NCBI GenBank assembly: GCA_029245525.1
Contig: JAQWPD010000022.1
Span: 1-63,138 of the forward strand
Source of the DNA: Gammaproteobacteria bacterium
GTDB taxonomy: Bacteria > Pseudomonadota > Gammaproteobacteria > Steroidobacterales > GCA-2729495
DNA length: 63,138 nucleotides
Reading direction: 5' to 3'
The notes below the pieces were generated by a model, which saw only the letters and a list, made by a program, of their open reading frames with translations, ran no database searches and was not told the origin of the DNA. The translations under genes were made by a program, and so were the position numbers. Of this stretch, positions 31,809-43,982 are shown one piece after another; position 1 is the first letter of the stretch; each line of letters opens with the position of its first letter.

Positions 31809-31877
31809 ATTTGTACGACCATAGAACTTGTGGGTGGTAGCGACAATACAAACGTGCATTGAGCAAAAAGGTTGAAT

Positions 31878-32780
31878 ATGGGAAAAAAAACCGATTGGTT
31901 TCCTGTGCTGGCCTCCAGCGAGCTCGGGAAAAGACCGCTGGCAAAAACCCGCTTCGGTGAGAAGCTGGTGTTCTGGCGCAGCAATGATGGTGTTGTGTGT
32001 ATGCCAGATCGCTGCCCGCATCGCGGTGCTGCGCTAAGTCTCGGAAGGGTTGTGAACAACAATATTGCCTGTCCTTTCCATGGTCTGGAATTTGCTTCGG
32101 GCGGAAAATGCGTGCACATGCCGGTGGAGCAGAGCCAGCGTATTCCTGATGATTTCGGCATTCGTTCATACGCCGTATGCGAAGCAGATGGCTACGTATG
32201 GCTGTGGCGCGGTGACGAGTTGCCTGCCGCCGAGCGACCGCCAGTGCCAAAGCATTCGGGCCTTATTGGGCGCCGCTACGGTGAATCAACGTCGGTGTGG
32301 CCCGCCCATTACACCCGCTGCATCGAAAATGTTTGCGACTTCAGTCATCTGCCCTTTGTGCATTCAAAAACCATCGGCCGGACTATGAGCGATAGTCCAA
32401 TACCGGTTGAGCTTGAAGAATTCACCGGAGGGTTTCGTGGTTATTTAATGAAGCAAAAAGGCGCCAAGCCAATGCTCGAGTTTTTGTATCCGAACATGTG
32501 GATGCTGCATGCTTCCCATAACATCTATATGACGGCAGTGTTTGTTCCGGTGGATGATCACAGTACTGAAGTTTACGGGCGAAGCTATTACCGCTTGCCA
32601 ATTCCGAAGATGTTGGCTGATGCTTACACCCGCCTATCGCAGCTCATAGTCTTTGCGGAAGACTGGCCAGTTGTTGCGAGTCAAGAGCCCTGGGATGTGA
32701 AAGACGCTAGCAATGAAAGACTGCTGCCTAGTGATGCTCCGGTGATCGCATACCGCAAGCTGTTGCGCAATTATCAGTAG
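31878..32780 (+). CDS. Rieske non-heme iron oxygenase, alpha-subunit type
   Basis: The 300-residue protein has an N-terminal Rieske [2Fe-2S] domain with CPHRG (Cys46, His48) and CPFHG (Cys65, His68). The catalytic domain has the mononuclear-iron motif in RCIENVCDFSHLPFVH (Asp154, His157, His162). This is the layout of single-component-type ring oxygenases and demethylases that take electrons from a separate reductase; none is adjacent. The substrate cannot be told. ATG 31878 is preferred, with AAAAGG about 7 bases upstream. The TetR gene and the Rieske fusion gene follow on the same strand. Confidence 0.88.
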   Translation: MGKKTDWFPVLASSELGKRPLAKTRFGEKLVFWRSNDGVVCMPDRCPHRGAALSLGRVVNNNIACPFHGLEFASGGKCVHMPVEQSQRIPDDFGIRSYAVCEADGYVWLWRGDELPAAERPPVPKHSGLIGRRYGESTSVWPAHYTRCIENVCDFSHLPFVHSKTIGRTMSDSPIPVELEEFTGGFRGYLMKQKGAKPMLEFLYPNMWMLHASHNIYMTAVFVPVDDHSTEVYGRSYYRLPIPKMLADAYTRLSQLIVFAEDWPVVASQEPWDVKDASNERLLPSDAPVIAYRKLLRNYQ

Positions 32781-32861: not shown

Positions 32862-33521
32862 GTGCAAAATAGCAATATGGTCGTCACAGCCTCTGTAAAA
32901 GCCGAAAAAAACGATGCCCGCTGGGCTAAAACTCGGCGCAAGTTGCTTGATGGTGGCCGCAGTGTATTTTCGGGGCAAGGCGTTGAAGCGACCACAGTGC
33001 TCGATATTATACGCGCTGCTGGCGTATCGCAGCCGTCTTTCTACAATCACTTTGAATCCAAAGATGCGCTGGCACGGGAGATTGCGGCAGAATTTTTTCG
33101 CCGGGATCGCGAGCGTAAGCTGCAAGTATTTGAAGAGGTGGAAGATCCGGCTATTGCCATTGCGATAAACGTGCAACAGACACTTGCTATAGCGACTGAT
33201 GACCCAGTCATCGCTTGGACATTTATCAAGAGTGATCACTTACGTGCATTGGTGATCTCCAGTGATAAAGACCCCCTGGCATCGATGATTAAGGCGGGCG
33301 TTAAACAGAAACGGTTTAATGTTCGCAGTGCCCGTACAGTGGCAATCACTATTCGCGGTGCTGCATTGGCAGTGGTGCAGGATGTATTAAATGGCACAGC
33401 GGATAAAAATGTTGTGCGTGAATTTCAATGTTTGGTGTTGCGAATGCTGGGTCTTGACTCACAGGAATGCATGGTTGTTGTGAAGCAAGCGACAGTATTG
33501 TTTCGTACCGTAAGCAGTTAG
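32862..33521 (+). CDS. TetR/AcrR-family transcriptional regulator
   Basis: The 219-residue protein has an N-terminal helix-turn-helix: ARWAKTRRKLLDGGRSVFSG leads into GVEATTVLDIIRAAGVSQPS and FYNHFESKDALAREIAAEFF, the standard TetR DNA-binding core. The ligand-binding C-terminal part is all helical and family-specific. The start may be GTG 32862 or ATG 32877; neither has a good ribosome binding site. Its stop codon overlaps the ribosome binding site of the downstream Rieske-SDR fusion gene (AGGAG at 33520-33524), so the regulator and its probable target are coexpressed. It likely controls one or both oxygenases. Confidence 0.9.
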   Translation: MQNSNMVVTASVKAEKNDARWAKTRRKLLDGGRSVFSGQGVEATTVLDIIRAAGVSQPSFYNHFESKDALAREIAAEFFRRDRERKLQVFEEVEDPAIAIAINVQQTLAIATDDPVIAWTFIKSDHLRALVISSDKDPLASMIKAGVKQKRFNVRSARTVAITIRGAALAVVQDVLNGTADKNVVREFQCLVLRMLGLDSQECMVVVKQATVLFRTVSS

Positions 33522-33530
33522 GAGTTTAAG

Positions 33531-35804
33531 TTGTATACAAACGTTTGGTATGTTGCGGGGTTTTCGAAAGATCTCGCAAAAGATCCGGTTAAAGTCACGA
33601 TGCTGGGTGCAGATTTTGTATTGTTTCGTGAGATGGATGGCACTCCGAAGTGCATCAGTAATGTCTGCCCGCATCGAGGTTCGAGTATGGCAGACGGTAT
33701 CATCTATAAGGACGGATCTATAGGTTGCCCATTTCATGGCTGGCGTTTTGATGGCGAAGGGGCGTGTACTTTAATTCCGTCGCGCTGTGATCACGAGCCA
33801 CAGGTTGTGGCCCCAGGTATTAAAATCGATGCTTATCCTACCGTTGAGCGATATGGCTGCATCTGGGTGTTTTTGGGCGATGACCCGGACGCTGCCTCGC
33901 CTATTTTTGATGTCCCTGAGTGGGAAGATGATGCGTTTCATCATACGACTAATGAAGAAATCTGGGAAGCTGACTATGTGACTTCAAAGTTTACCAACCT
34001 TGATTATGTGCATCTTCCCGTAGTGCATGGCATTTTATTTCAAGGCAATGAGAATCCGATTCAGGCACCCGAGCATGTTGTCACCAGCACCGAACACGGT
34101 TTTCAATCCGTGATGCGTGTTAACCCCGCACCCAGTGAGGGAGTCTGGAGTGAAATGCGAGAGGAGGGCGCGAAGGTCGAGTCCAGAATGAAATTCTTTG
34201 TTCCTGGTTTTACTTTGCGCGGGCAGGTTGAGATTGGCGGTATTGGTTCCGGCGAATTCAATATTTTCTATGAGTTTACGACGCCTATTGATGAGCATCG
34301 TACGATGATGCGCCATATTTTTCTGCGAAATTATCGTATGGAGGCAGACTTTGACGCCGAGCATACGCGCCGTAACCTGCAAAATATTCATCAGGATAAA
34401 GATCTTGCCGAACGCCAAAGGCCATTGATTGCTCCTGATGGGCCTAACCCGGATGGGTTTTATACGCATGATGAAGACAAAATTATGCTGACCTATTGGG
34501 GTCTCATGGAGCAAATGCGCAACAAGGGCTGGCAGCTTGATCGCAGTAAGCTACACGCTGCGGATATTAAGGTTCGAATCATTCCCTCGCCCAATCGAAA
34601 GGCTGACCCAGAAGGCTGGGCTTATCCAGCGGTAGCCTTGTTGGACCCAGCAGATATTACTCAACCCTCTGTGAAGGACCTTAAGTTTGTTGATATCGAT
34701 AATGTGGAGGCAACGCGAGCTAAAGATTACGGCAAGTCGGAGCCGGTGGTGCCAAGAGATGCAAAATCGAAAGCGACTATGGAATGGGAGGATGAAGCCC
34801 TCACAATGATCGAAAAGGCCCCTGGCTTTATACAACCTATGATCATAAAAAATGCTGAAAAAGCAGCGCGGGAGAAGGGCAGCAATTTTGTCACAGTTGA
34901 ACTTATGAAAGAGTTGCAGGCAAAACAAAATGGTGGTGTGGCGCCAGCAGCTGATGGCTCTGCTCCAAAGCCGAAAATGGCAAAACGTAAACAATCAAAA
35001 GGAAGTGTTATGCAGAACGGACAAGAACTCGCAGGTAAAGTTATTATTGTAACCGGCGGTACAATGGGTATTGGGTTTGGTATGGCCACACGCCTTGCTA
35101 AGTACGGAGCGAATATTGTTATTACCAGTCGTAATGCCGATACAGGTGAGGAAGCCCTAGCTCGCTTATCTAAAGCTGCGGGCGTTGACGCTAATGCGGT
35201 TGCCTATTTCCAGATGGATATCAGCAAAGAGTCTGACAATGAAAATCTTGTTAAGTTTGCTGTTGATAAGTTCGGCCGACTCGACTCTATTATTAATAAT
35301 GCGGTCTATCCGGGCGATTTCCAAATGTTGGGTGAAGAGCCGCTGGATAGCTTTCAGCAGGTTGTCGATACCAATATCACCGGTACTTATCTCGGCATGA
35401 AGTTCGCTATTAAACAGTTTTTGGCGCAGGGTGCTGACACCGGTGATAACTATTCCATTGTCAATATCAGCTCAGGTGCTACCCGTGATACGGGCATGCG
35501 TATGGCGCCGTATATCGCGTCTAAGCGCGCAGTTGAAGGTTTGACTCAGGCTGCAGCGTTGGAGTATTCACGGCAGGGTATTCGCGTGAATACGTTGTTA
35601 TTCGGAGTCTTCGAAACCGAGAAAGCCAAGCAATTTCATGATGCGATGCCAGAATTTGAGCAAAAGAATGCGGCTAAACATCATGTGGGACGCTTCGGAG
35701 ACCCTGAGCATGATGCCGGTGAGGCTGCGGCTTACCTTATTTCTGATCGCGGCTCATTTGTTACCGGCACCACAATGATTCTCGATGGCGGTATGTGCTT
35801 ATAG
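33531..35804 (+). CDS. Three-part fusion: Rieske oxygenase, PCP_red-like domain, short-chain dehydrogenase
   Basis: One uninterrupted 757-residue frame from TTG 33531, with AGGAG 6 bases upstream. Residues 1 to about 400 are a Rieske oxygenase: CPHRG (Cys46, His48), CPFHGW (Cys66, His69), and the iron motif NLDYVHLPVVH (Asp158, His161, His166). Residues about 417-467 (MEWEDEALTMIEKAPGFIQP then EKAAREKGSNFVTVELM) resemble PCP_red, the small domain at the end of protochlorophyllide reductase subunit B. After a Pro/Lys-rich linker, residues 494-757 are a complete SDR with TGGTMGIG, NNAV in place of NNAG, SSGAT and the YxxxK motif (APYIASKRAVEG). It predicts oxygenation and alcohol/ketone oxidation by one polypeptide. 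Substrate unknown. Confidence 0.85.
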   Translation: MYTNVWYVAGFSKDLAKDPVKVTMLGADFVLFREMDGTPKCISNVCPHRGSSMADGIIYKDGSIGCPFHGWRFDGEGACTLIPSRCDHEPQVVAPGIKIDAYPTVERYGCIWVFLGDDPDAASPIFDVPEWEDDAFHHTTNEEIWEADYVTSKFTNLDYVHLPVVHGILFQGNENPIQAPEHVVTSTEHGFQSVMRVNPAPSEGVWSEMREEGAKVESRMKFFVPGFTLRGQVEIGGIGSGEFNIFYEFTTPIDEHRTMMRHIFLRNYRMEADFDAEHTRRNLQNIHQDKDLAERQRPLIAPDGPNPDGFYTHDEDKIMLTYWGLMEQMRNKGWQLDRSKLHAADIKVRIIPSPNRKADPEGWAYPAVALLDPADITQPSVKDLKFVDIDNVEATRAKDYGKSEPVVPRDAKSKATMEWEDEALTMIEKAPGFIQPMIIKNAEKAAREKGSNFVTVELMKELQAKQNGGVAPAADGSAPKPKMAKRKQSKGSVMQNGQELAGKVIIVTGGTMGIGFGMATRLAKYGANIVITSRNADTGEEALARLSKAAGVDANAVAYFQMDISKESDNENLVKFAVDKFGRLDSIINNAVYPGDFQMLGEEPLDSFQQVVDTNITGTYLGMKFAIKQFLAQGADTGDNYSIVNISSGATRDTGMRMAPYIASKRAVEGLTQAAALEYSRQGIRVNTLLFGVFETEKAKQFHDAMPEFEQKNAAKHHVGRFGDPEHDAGEAAAYLISDRGSFVTGTTMILDGGMCL
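34997..35012 (+). promoter_or_regulatory. Internal ribosome binding site and ATG at the SDR boundary
   Basis: AAAAGGAAG (34997-35005) sits 4 bases before an in-frame ATG (35010-35012), exactly where the SDR domain begins (MQNGQELAGK). This could yield a separate 264-residue SDR in addition to the fusion, or be a relic of two once separate genes joined by loss of a stop codon. Confidence 0.5.
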
Positions 35805-40937: not shown

Positions 40938-41002
40938 CTCTATGCTCGGTTTATAATTTGTACTCTAATAACCCTTAAGGGTCATTGTTTCATAACTACT
41001 GT

Positions 41003-41512
41003 ATGTCTCATTTATTCACTAATATCGGTGTCATGCTGCTCTGCTTTGTCGCGATGGAGGGCGTGGCTTTTTTCAGCCACAAATACATCATGCACGGTTT
41101 TTTGTGGTGCTGGCATGAGTCGCATCATACTGCGCGTGAAAGTTGGTTTGAACAGAATGACCTATTCGCATTCATATTCGCCGTACCATCCATAGCCGCT
41201 ATTTGGTTCGGCACTAACGGGCATCCGTTGTTGCTCTGGGCTGGGGTTGGTGTCGCTTTATACGGCCTTGTGTATTTCATATTTCATGATGTGATTGTTC
41301 ATCGACGCGTTCGCACCGGCTATATTCCCAAAAGCTCGTACATGCGACGTATCGTAGAGGCCCATTGGGTGCATCATTCAACCAAGGGCAAAGAGGGCGC
41401 GGTGTCGTTTGGGTTTATTTATTCAAAGCCTGTGGCTGAGTTAGTCAAAGAGCGTGATGCTCTGGCAAAGTCGCGAAAGGACGAAACCTTGAAGCCTCAT
41501 GGGGTTTCCTAG
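41003..41512 (+). CDS. crtZ: Beta-carotene 3-hydroxylase CrtZ
   Basis: CrtZ is a membrane di-iron enzyme that hydroxylates beta-ionone rings, turning beta-carotene into zeaxanthin. The 169-residue protein has the four histidine clusters of the family: HKYIMH, HESHH, HDVIVH and HWVHH, together with YIPKSSYMRRIVEAHWVHHS. Membrane helices surround them. ATG 41003 is chosen over TTG 40985, as MSHLFTNIGVMLLCFVAMEG gives a normal N-terminus. It is convergent with crtB, with an 8-base gap, so it completes the carotenoid locus from the opposite strand. Confidence 0.93.
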   Translation: MSHLFTNIGVMLLCFVAMEGVAFFSHKYIMHGFLWCWHESHHTARESWFEQNDLFAFIFAVPSIAAIWFGTNGHPLLLWAGVGVALYGLVYFIFHDVIVHRRVRTGYIPKSSYMRRIVEAHWVHHSTKGKEGAVSFGFIYSKPVAELVKERDALAKSRKDETLKPHGVS

Positions 41513-41520
41513 ATTGGGGA

Positions 41521-42480
41521 TTATCGAATTGCTGGTGGCGCTGTCCAGAGGTCACTGTCGCGCGGTGCCGGCTGTGTTTTGTTATCGAACCACGATGCCT
41601 TTAAGGCATCAATCATGCCTTCTGCAATGCCCAACAGCTTTCGGCGCTTCCGCACAACAACGCGCTCATTGAGTGCGCTTACGCCGCGCTCGCGTACTTT
41701 ATCGCCAATTGCTTTGTACACTCCGCGTGCGGATGCCACAGCCCATGCTGATCGGAAACCTAACGAGCGTAAGCCCTGATCCGCTGATGCGTAGTAACGA
41801 TCCGCCTCGTTGAGCAGCCGTTCAATCACACTCATTAGTGCTGCTGAGTATTCCGGGTCGGAGAGTTCTTGCGGAGGAATGCCAGCCTCTACGAGCCAGT
41901 CTTCAGGTAGATACACTCGATCAATGAGCGCGTCTTCACGCACATCACGCGAGATATTTGTGAGTTGAAAGGCAATACCAAGATCAGTCGCACGTTGCAA
42001 AGCGGCTTCATCACGAGCACCCATCACATAAGCCATCATTAGGCCAACAACCCCGGCAACGTAGTAGCAATATTGCAGGGTCTCATCAAAACTTTTGTAT
42101 TGATGTTCCTCTGCGTCCATAGCGAACCCTTCGAGCAGTTCCAATGGGTAGCGGCCGGGGATCTCATTGGCTTTCAGAACATAGCGCAGACCTTCGAAGA
42201 TAGGATCTTCCGACGGCTTGTTATCAATGGCAGCCTGAGTTTTTTCTTTAAGTTCATTGAGAATTTGGCGGGTTACTTCCGCTTTTTGGGGCTTGCTATT
42301 GAACCCTAGTTCCTGATTATCGATCACATCATCACAATGGCGACACCAGGCATAAAGCATATAGGCATTGTTGCGGGTTTCTTCGTTAAACAGTTTTGCC
42401 GCAGTAGCGAAGCTCTTAGAGCCGCTCTTAATGATGAGCCTGCTGGTGTCGACCAGTGCGGCATGGTTTAAGTCATTCAA
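41521..42480 (-). CDS. crtB: Phytoene synthase CrtB
   Basis: CrtB condenses two geranylgeranyl diphosphates to phytoene, the committed carotenoid step. The 319-residue protein has the first Asp-rich motif YAWCRHCDDVIDNQE near residue 45 and the second in LTNISRDVREDALIDRVYLP near residue 175. AEEHQYKSFDETLQYCYYVAG and GLMMAYVMG are also family blocks. Length is normal. Its ATG overlaps the crtI stop by 4 bases (42477-42480), so crtI and crtB form a coupled pair read leftward. No crtE is in the window to supply GGPP. Confidence 0.95.
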   Translation of the reverse strand: MNDLNHAALVDTSRLIIKSGSKSFATAAKLFNEETRNNAYMLYAWCRHCDDVIDNQELGFNSKPQKAEVTRQILNELKEKTQAAIDNKPSEDPIFEGLRYVLKANEIPGRYPLELLEGFAMDAEEHQYKSFDETLQYCYYVAGVVGLMMAYVMGARDEAALQRATDLGIAFQLTNISRDVREDALIDRVYLPEDWLVEAGIPPQELSDPEYSAALMSVIERLLNEADRYYASADQGLRSLGFRSAWAVASARGVYKAIGDKVRERGVSALNERVVVRKRRKLLGIAEGMIDALKASWFDNKTQPAPRDSDLWTAPPAIR

Positions 42481-43982
42481 TGTTTGCTCCAGTCTTCTTC
42501 CATTAGTCCGGCAGTGGCCGCCGCTGAATTAATGACCCCTGGTATGCCTGCGCCCGGATGTGTTCCGGCACCAACAAAATAAAGGCCTTTTATGGCCTCG
42601 TCTCTATTATGAACCCTAAACCAAGCGCTTTGAAGCAGGGTAGGCTGAAGTGAGAAGGCAGACCCGAGGTGGGCATTAAGGGTCGTTTCGAAATCCGGTG
42701 GCGTAAAGATTCGCGAACTAACGATTCTTTTGCGGAGACCTGGCATTACCCGTTCTTCTAGGCTATGCAGAATACGATCACGCAACAGCGGGCCGGCCGT
42801 CTCCCAGTCGACTTTGCCTTTGCCTAGATGGGGGACCGGCGCCAGTACGTAGTGGGTCGAGTGTCCCGGAGGTGCCAGACTGTCGTCCGATACTGATGGT
42901 GAGTGCAGATACAATGAGAAATCGTCGGCGAGTTCACCGCGATCAAAAATATCTTTCAGCAGCTCCTTATAGCGTGGACCGAACAATATTGAGTGATGAG
43001 CCAAATTTTCATATTTGCCCTCGACACCAAAGTAAACTAAAAACAGTGACATAGAATGGTCATTTCGCTCGAGCTTTTTAGCGGCGGGTTTGGCCGGAGC
43101 CGTTTCCCTTAGTAAATGTTTGTAGGTGTGCACGACATCGGCGTTGCTACCAACAAAATGACTGGCGATGAACTCACCACTTTTTAGCTTGACGCCGGTG
43201 ACGCAATTATTCTCAGTAATTATTTCGTCCACAGCAGCATTTAGGCGGATGCTGCCGCCGAGATCTCCAAATAGTTTAACCAGTGCCGCAACCAGTGCGC
43301 CTGTCCCGCCGCGGGGAAAGTGCACACCGAACTTGAGTTCGAGAGTGTGGATGAGTGTGTATATGGATGAGGTCGTAAAAGGGTTTCCGCCGACCAGCAA
43401 CGTGTGATAGCTAAATACCTGGCGCAGCTTTTCATCTTTAATAAAGCTGGCTACTTTACTGTATACCGAGCGATAGGCCTGCAGTTGCACCAAGTTAGGT
43501 GCAGCTTTAACCATGCTCCAAATGTTAAGAAACGGCACATGGGCGAGCTTTTCATAGCCTTCCGCGTACACGGCTGCCGAGTATTCGCGAAATTTGCGAT
43601 AGCCCTCAATATCCTGTGGGCTGAATTCATTGATGGCTGCTTCGAGCTGGGCTTCATCACCCACATAGTCAAACTCCATGCCATCGGGCCAGATTAGCCT
43701 ATAAAACGGTGTCAGTGGTTCAAACTGTATGTAGTCTTCCCGGCGTTTGCCGCCGGCAGTAAACAGATCATCGACAACCTGAGGTACCGTAAGTACCGTG
43801 GGTCCTGCGTCAAACTTAAAGCCGTCTTGTTCCCAAACATAAGCACGACCACCCGGTTTGTCTCGGCTCTCGAGAATAATCGTGGGTATGCCGGCAGCCT
43901 GCAGTCTTATTGCCAGAGCGAGTCCGCCAAAGCCGCTGCCAATGACTATGGCTCGTTTTTCTGCAGTATCAGCGCCGTTCAT
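42477..43982 (-). CDS. crtI: Phytoene desaturase CrtI
   Basis: CrtI is an FAD-dependent membrane-associated enzyme that introduces four double bonds to make lycopene from phytoene. The 501-residue protein starts with the dinucleotide-binding motif VIGSGFGGLALAIRLQAAG (about residues 12-30), followed by GGRAYVWEQDGFKFDAGPTV. It ends with the CrtI signature GLYFVGAGTHPGAGIPGVIN. The desaturation number cannot be told from sequence alone, but crtY downstream in the pathway implies lycopene. The 152 bases upstream, before crtY, could hold the crtI promoter; no clear hexamers stand out. Confidence 0.95.
   Translation of the reverse strand: MNGADTAEKRAIVIGSGFGGLALAIRLQAAGIPTIILESRDKPGGRAYVWEQDGFKFDAGPTVLTVPQVVDDLFTAGGKRREDYIQFEPLTPFYRLIWPDGMEFDYVGDEAQLEAAINEFSPQDIEGYRKFREYSAAVYAEGYEKLAHVPFLNIWSMVKAAPNLVQLQAYRSVYSKVASFIKDEKLRQVFSYHTLLVGGNPFTTSSIYTLIHTLELKFGVHFPRGGTGALVAALVKLFGDLGGSIRLNAAVDEIITENNCVTGVKLKSGEFIASHFVGSNADVVHTYKHLLRETAPAKPAAKKLERNDHSMSLFLVYFGVEGKYENLAHHSILFGPRYKELLKDIFDRGELADDFSLYLHSPSVSDDSLAPPGHSTHYVLAPVPHLGKGKVDWETAGPLLRDRILHSLEERVMPGLRKRIVSSRIFTPPDFETTLNAHLGSAFSLQPTLLQSAWFRVHNRDEAIKGLYFVGAGTHPGAGIPGVINSAAATAGLMEEDWSKH

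Follow-up and report, generated by a model that had tools for sequence, protein, structure and literature searches.

How a Rieske oxygenase, a PCP_red domain and a complete short-chain dehydrogenase/reductase (SDR) came to share one reading frame, and what such a protein may do, are the questions raised by a gene in a 63,138-nucleotide stretch of DNA (the window) from a gammaproteobacterial genome of the Steroidobacterales (family GCA-2729495; GenBank assembly GCA_029245525.1, contig JAQWPD010000022.1). We consider it fairly probable that the gene encodes a VanA-type oxygenase with a PCP_red tail, fused by loss of a stop codon to a downstream SDR, and that the two enzymes act sequentially on one small molecule. 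In what follows, genomes are denoted by G numbers (G000 is that of the window) and loci by L numbers.

A preliminary description of this DNA had read a single open frame with both Rieske Cys-His pairs, the histidines of the mononuclear iron, a PCP_red-like segment and an intact SDR active site, and all of these parts are borne out by the frame, by Pfam and by the motifs. The Rieske ligands C46/H48 (CxH) and C66/H69 (CxxH) are invariant in 10 of 10 rows of alignment A2, as are D158, H161, H166 and D289, which, from family knowledge, we take to supply the 2-His-1-carboxylate site of the mononuclear iron and the bridging Asp. PF08369, which the same description had proposed to look for in residues 400-500, matches there with 46.8 bits against a curated cut-off of 32.5; used as an 11-row profile, these residues also match the ChlB C-terminus (PDB 2xdq_B, 1.2e-5) and the solved BchB PCP_red domain (2kru_A, 4.3e-5). 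The SDR half matches adh_short_C2 at residues 512-755 (PF13561, E 8.8e-49), with complete motifs (TGGTMGIG 508-515, NNAV 589-592, NISSG 645-649 and YIASK 661-665). Pfam matches at E<=1 include no nitrogenase component 1 domain (PF00148), no reductase or ferredoxin domain and no catalytic domain of the pheophorbide a oxygenase (PaO) or chlorophyllide a oxygenase (CAO) type, VanA_C being present instead. The TTG start is supported by the Shine-Dalgarno sequence ahead of it and by GTG or ATG at the equivalent codon in relatives. Structure models have a predicted local distance difference test score (pLDDT) of 39 for the full-length protein and 54 for residues 400-500.

A search of 40 genomes of the family with the whole fused protein yielded an uninterrupted Rieske-PCP_red-SDR frame in five, which represent three genera. 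Thus homologues with the same domain order, which the preliminary description had proposed to look for, exist without a stop: besides G000, complete copies occur in G002 (95% identity to the window), G001 (88%) and G022 (79%), and the G014 copy (76%) is cut by a contig end at residue 633 with its junction intact. An assembly error or a missed stop codon in the window, specifically a join or stop between residues 470 and 494, could be suspected since G001, G002, G014 and G022 are metagenome-assembled genomes and two other relatives do have a stop at the junction; it is nevertheless hardly credible and was rejected, as five assemblies share the open frame. Two of these share 95% and 88% identity with the window, and two come from other genera. 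In a fourth genus, represented by G015, a single frame (L099, 2235-3224) runs from the last part of PCP_red through the linker into the SDR. This frame begins inside PCP_red, preceded before residue 427 by unrelated sequence on a continuous contig, and a search with the Rieske half found no orthologous Rieske gene in the 80%-complete genome (best full-length match, 34%). The G015 locus is either the remnant of a fused gene, left by deletion, or a join in that assembly, and is not counted as a fusion.

Outside the family, overlapping samples of 396 order genomes (E<=1e-80), 369 class genomes (alignment A2) and 349 phylum genomes, of which only the best 2-4 candidates per genome were scored, contained no fused copy at the thresholds used; among the matches listed, non-family matches in the order sample end at or before residue 378. 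Carriage of the fusion by phages or plasmids was rejected: none of 4396 plasmid-collection records with a match has one place covering 80% of the query, and the viral contig search showed no relative of alignment A2 encoded on any viral contig. Between the window and G001 (L002, L003), the Rieske half is near saturation in synonymous differences (pS 0.79) while the SDR half has a pS of 0.37, and the SDR halves of G001 and G002 are almost identical. This pattern points to intragenic recombination or to transfer.

The unfused relatives bear on the origin of the fusion. A single in-frame TAG lies between the two genes in G017, and a single TAA, in the same frame, in G010. In G027 and G021 the SDR starts closely after PCP_red in a different reading frame, the Rieske part of G021 being on a separate contig and ending at residue 455. 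G024, G025 and G029 (95%, 73% and 87% complete) encode Rieske-PCP_red proteins of ~470 residues and have no SDR match at E<=1e-60. The SDR of G020, G004 and G030 (66%, 55% and 70% identity) adjoins an opposite-strand Rieske gene, divergently in the first two and convergently in G030; these Rieske genes align only to about residue 377 and hence lack PCP_red. The pieces found in G009 lie at contig ends, which makes the SDR context unreadable. These arrangements indicate that the fusion arose by stop loss between neighboring oxygenase and SDR genes, an event that perhaps happened once, and a branch of the Rieske tree separates the five fused rows from the others (support 75/86; 76% of bootstrap trees). 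Since Rieske-PCP_red occurs apart from the SDR in unfused relatives, PCP_red was a tail of the oxygenase before the SDR joined, and it owes its middle position to the later stop loss that added the SDR behind it.

Whether the stretch between PCP_red and the SDR is translated as part of the chain can be judged from its pattern of change. Over linker codons 467-493, the window, G022 and G014 have 20, 21 and 35 differences at codon positions 1, 2 and 3, a bias reached by 7 of 5000 within-codon shuffles; with G015 added, the counts become 34/44/72 (3 of 5000). Between these lineages the linker has a nonsynonymous divergence (dN) of 0.17-0.35 and a synonymous divergence (dS) of at least 0.9, which indicates weaker constraint on it than on the domains. 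A core resembling KPKMAKRK is kept in the fused copies (KAKMVKRK in G014), and the frame is open in three genera at near-saturated synonymous divergence. We therefore conclude with moderate confidence, from codon patterns, that the linker is read as protein.

The fused gene also retains the start of the ancestral SDR. A four-base Shine-Dalgarno core precedes Met494 in five of five fused copies and in the G015 remnant. Among 45 glycines that are invariant in the window, G022 and G014, a single one, that lying within this internal Shine-Dalgarno sequence, is encoded by GGA throughout; its codon is GGA in G015 also (one of 18 across the four lineages). GGA accounts for 5-12% of the Gly codons in these genes, whose synonymous sites approach saturation. 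A free SDR product made from the ATG at 35010, in addition to the full-length chain, is thus plausible. Shine-Dalgarno strength alone was considered as proof of the internal start and is not decisive, in view of a moderate duplex energy and of a similar core at Met220.

The distribution of PCP_red places the middle domain in a broader context. Of 60 related genomes, 31 contain PF08369, with 68 matches in all; 67 of these were assigned to classes by BLAST against exemplars, with some manual sorting for four classes. The hosts are flavin reductases (27), Rieske proteins (14 pieces in 13 genomes, G015 remnant included), DUF169 proteins (6), bilin reductases (6), BchZ-like proteins (4), BchB (3), UspA (3, in one protein), nitrogenase-like proteins (2), a radical SAM protein (1) and PCP_red alone (1). 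For six exemplars, Pfam bore out the host domains Flavin_Reduct, DUF169, Fe_bilin_red and Oxidored_nitro, although the PCP_red segment scores under the cut-off in five (19.5-27.3 bits) and only slightly over it in the sixth (33.2); the names BchB, BchZ, UspA and radical SAM come from a reading of the sequence and its neighbors. Across the class, PF08369 occurs in 18 of 274 genomes, and open-frame lengths suggest that its hosts there are BchB/BchZ-like proteins and a UspA/radical-SAM pair. The preliminary description had supposed that PCP_red in the middle might bind the substrate or tether it between the two active sites. This was not supported, as the unfused G024, G025 and G029 proteins have the domain and it ends unrelated redox proteins too; a linker evolved for channelling was rejected on the same ground. 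PCP_red is best read as an old oxygenase tail that would serve as a docking or assembly module rather than as a channel between sites. Such a role is favored because many of the proteins that carry PCP_red are redox enzymes whose electrons come from partner proteins; UspA as a host is not an obvious fit.

Several individual PCP_red loci are worth recording. The only other PF08369 match of the window's own genome at E<=0.001 is a flavin-reductase-like protein with a C-terminal PCP_red (L068/L098, C98), a type present in 25 of the 60 genomes. Bilin-reductase-type proteins with a PCP_red-like C-terminus occur in six family genomes (L075/L091, L080/L092, L082, L086/L097, L123 and L126/L104; Pfam-checked in two), and those at L097 and L104 adjoin, as judged by eye, a nitric-oxide-reductase-type gene. 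DUF169-type proteins with a PCP_red end lie at L073, L074, L075, L078, L108 and L118 (Pfam-checked in one). In G007 and G014 (L095, L096), two NifH-like and two nitrogenase-component-like genes form a run, the last with a PCP_red end, that looks like an uncharacterised nitrogenase-like reductase. At L087 a long UspA-like frame with several PCP_red copies lies near a shorter radical-SAM-like frame with PCP_red, and the class genomes G409, G548, G596, G607, G611, G612 and G621 have the same pair of a long and a short PCP_red frame, judged by frame lengths. A BchZ-like gene with a PCP_red-like end in G026 (L029) adjoins, by eye, reaction-centre-like genes; G026 is a probable phototroph inside the window's family. 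PF08369 is a mobile tail on enzymes other than chlorophyll reductases, and the role of the domain is now testable. A 2026 trait survey (PMC12815261) uses PF08369 among the Pfam families that pre-screen genomes for phototrophy, ahead of a pathway check; with the domain on non-chlorophyll enzymes, a PF08369 match alone is no phototrophy marker.

In the reading that we favor, the oxygenase half would hydroxylate one small molecule with electrons from a separate reductase, and the tethered SDR would then interconvert the new alcohol and the carbonyl with a nicotinamide cofactor, giving a net two-step oxidation. The TetR-family regulator encoded upstream would probably control the gene by sensing substrate or product, and some free SDR may come from the retained internal start. 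As a class, SDRs are usually tetrameric or dimeric. A 2025 perspective (PMC12445004) describes Rieske oxygenases as having C3 symmetry. The proposal of the preliminary description that oxygenase and SDR work in sequence gains support from gene context. An SDR match at E<=1e-60 is present in 14 of the 40 family genomes, with readable context in 13: the SDR is fused to the Rieske gene in five, a same-strand neighbor in four, next to an opposite-strand Rieske gene in three and behind the PCP_red remnant in one (G015), the unreadable case being G009. It is accordingly fused to or beside a Rieske gene in 12 of 13 readable genomes, G015 being the exception.

A number of observations weigh against this account. 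Three genomes have Rieske-PCP_red and no SDR match at the same threshold, and in G015 nothing but a remnant of PCP_red accompanies the SDR, with no orthologous Rieske gene found, so each half may manage alone. The ITSRN motif suggests NADP(H) and could equally mean a reductase. Support for the fused branch of the Rieske tree does not reach the level that the tool treats as firm, and the SDR tree, which is not resolved, does not group the fused copies. The linker test rests on 27 codons, and the close pairs window-G002 and window-G001 alone are uninformative (625 of 5000 shuffles); moreover, the control is not a clean one: the corresponding stretch of unfused G017, which lies mostly behind a stop, has a weaker third-position excess (39/26/51; 87 of 5000) and a dN likewise below dS (0.48 versus 2.3 with the window). 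The duplex energy of the internal Shine-Dalgarno sequence is moderate, -3.7 to -6.3 kcal/mol, ranking 2-7 among 15-30 in-frame ATGs; Met494 is fourth of 16 conserved Met codons by worst-row energy, and Met220 likewise has a Shine-Dalgarno core in all its rows.

Other explanations must be weighed against this one. The fusion might be a nearly neutral by-product of a lost stop, with the free form from 35010 as the working SDR and no advantage in the full-length chain. The ancestral start and Shine-Dalgarno core retained in all five fused copies, and in the G015 remnant where the Rieske half is lost, agree with this explanation, as do the GGA codon kept in four lineages and the separate genes that suffice in unfused relatives. 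The retained linker core, the concentration of changes at third codon positions (7/5000 shuffles) and a frame open in three genera despite near-saturated synonymous divergence speak against it, and we regard it as unlikely, although it merits serious attention. At the opposite extreme, Rieske-PCP_red-SDR may channel its intermediate as an obligate single chain, free SDR not being made at all. Here the retention of frame and linker counts in favor, together with the finding of no second match to the protein at E<=1e-60 in the genome of the window (26 of 37 candidates scored); yet the internal start has been retained, the structure models show the linker as unstructured or give it low confidence, and relatives have separate genes, which makes this possibility rather improbable.

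A different substrate class is proposed if the fusion is a tetrapyrrole enzyme, which would oxidise a chlorophyll- or bilin-type ring in the manner of CAO or PaO and then use the SDR like chlorophyll b reductase. According to PMC13297055, CAO is a Rieske enzyme that carries out two successive monooxygenations. PCP_red is found, within the family and order, at the end of bilin-reductase-like, BchB, BchZ-like and nitrogenase-like proteins as well, and the unfused G010 has, by eye, a SOUL haem-binding-like gene (L100, 8409-9113) ~2.3 kb from its SDR/Rieske pair. Against this stand the lack of a PaO/CAO-type Pfam match at E<=1, the PCP_red ends of flavin reductases, DUF169, UspA-like and radical-SAM-like proteins, and the fact that the six genomes with bilin-reductase-PCP_red and the 12 with Rieske-PCP_red (besides the G015 remnant) have only G029 in common; nor were tetrapyrrole genes recognised by eye beside the fused copies. 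We judge a tetrapyrrole enzyme very improbable. About as improbable is a more novel scheme, in which PCP_red in this family is a portable C-terminal tag that brings unrelated redox enzymes (Rieske oxygenase, flavin reductase, bilin reductase, DUF169 and nitrogenase-like reductase) to one shared partner or to tetrapyrroles. In that scheme the fusion would oxidise the side chain of a chlorophyll-derived ring in two steps on one chain, as a bacterial equivalent of the plant chlorophyll cycle, and its gene would give rise to free SDR too.

The features of the locus are collected in Table 1. A homologue of the TetR gene flanks the Rieske gene in nine genomes (that of the window, G002, G001, G022, G017, G010, G021, G030 and G020). 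No such homologue was detected in G014, G029, G025, G024 and G004, where some upstream sequence was examined, or at nine loci with more distant Rieske genes (L036, L037, L039, L042, L043, L045, L047, L062 and L065). No ferredoxin or reductase partner was recognised by eye among the neighbors, and a genome-wide reductase search was not made. A second, distinct Rieske/VanA_C gene lies just upstream of the TetR gene (window 31872-32780) and is also present in G002 (90%); tblastn found no close counterpart at that place beside the G022, G017 and G010 genes. Downstream, at 40985-43982, are carotenoid-type genes: an FA_hydroxylase-domain protein (Pfam) and phytoene-synthase-like and desaturase-like proteins (by eye). 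A carotenoid link was rejected, as the crt-like genes lie ~5 kb downstream in the window and G002 and were not seen in the G022, G017 and G010 stretches. A tetrapyrrole pathway cluster was likewise rejected: the genes listed around the PCP_red loci were viewed by eye, and no such cluster was seen around the fused copies.

Table 1 Features of the fused gene and its upstream regulator in the window.
Feature	Position	Strand	Details
TetR-family regulator, directly upstream of the fused gene	32862..33521	+	Pfam PF00440 and PF21306
Shine-Dalgarno AGGAG of the fused gene	33520..33524	+	Sequence and duplex energy
Fused gene, Rieske oxygenase + PCP_red + SDR	33531..35804	+	757 aa; TTG start at 33531, stop at 35804
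Rieske [2Fe-2S] domain, residues 6-85	33546..33785	+	Pfam PF00355, E 3.8e-21
Rieske ligand motifs	33666-33680 (CPHRG 46-50) and 33726-33740 (CPFHG 66-70)	+	Motif reading
VanA_C catalytic domain, residues 157-300	33999..34430	+	Pfam PF19112, E 5.3e-10; carries D158-x2-H161-x4-H166
PCP_red domain, residues 419-461	34785..34913	+	Pfam PF08369, E 3.1e-12; ChlB/BchB C-termini in PDB
Linker, residues 467-493, Lys-rich	34929..35009	+	Conserved among fused copies
Internal Shine-Dalgarno AAGGA, ahead of the old SDR start	34999..35003	+	
ATG, Met494, ancestral SDR start	35010..35012	+	Aligns with the starts of free SDR genes
Complete classical SDR, residues 494-757, with stop	35010..35804	+	Pfam PF13561/PF00106; motifs

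No report of a Rieske-SDR or Rieske-PCP_red fusion was found in the titles and abstract starts searched, a coverage largely outside subscription journals and preprints. The oxygenase half shares the CxH/CxxH pair, the D-x2-H-x4-H motif and the VanA_C domain with VanA_C-type Rieske oxygenases, with PDB matches to SxtDIOX (6.7e-22), SxtT (2.4e-20), the dicamba O-demethylase DdmC (2.9e-20) and NdmA (1.7e-17); it differs in that PCP_red and a complete SDR are added on one chain. The SDR half resembles classical SDRs such as gluconate 5-dehydrogenase (1vl8) and glucose 1-dehydrogenases in its motifs and full-length match (1vl8_A, E 1e-37), but sits behind an oxygenase. PCP_red is shared with the BchB/ChlB subunits of dark-operative protochlorophyllide reductase, whereas here the domain follows a Rieske oxygenase and the nitrogenase-type domain is absent. 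CAO and PaO are Rieske enzymes as well; the tetrapyrrole link is by PCP_red analogy only, and the PaO-type Pfam match is lacking (E<=1). Self-sufficient oxygenases likewise have an oxygenase fused to another redox enzyme, but their partner is an electron-transfer reductase, in contrast to the hydride-transferring SDR of the fused protein. The 2025 perspective cited above (PMC12445004) notes that a self-sufficient Rieske system has yet to be identified, and the fused protein is not one, because no reductase is fused. The locus presents a natural fusion, present in a few uncultured bacteria, of a Rieske oxygenase with its likely downstream dehydrogenase, and so offers a natural test of the way in which paired enzymes become linked; with fused and unfused states in close relatives, any gain from tethering is directly measurable. 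The same enzyme types are neighbors in plasmid-collection records of Caballeronia, Novosphingobium, Acinetobacter and Klebsiella, where they are encoded by separate genes, whereas in the window they form one chain.

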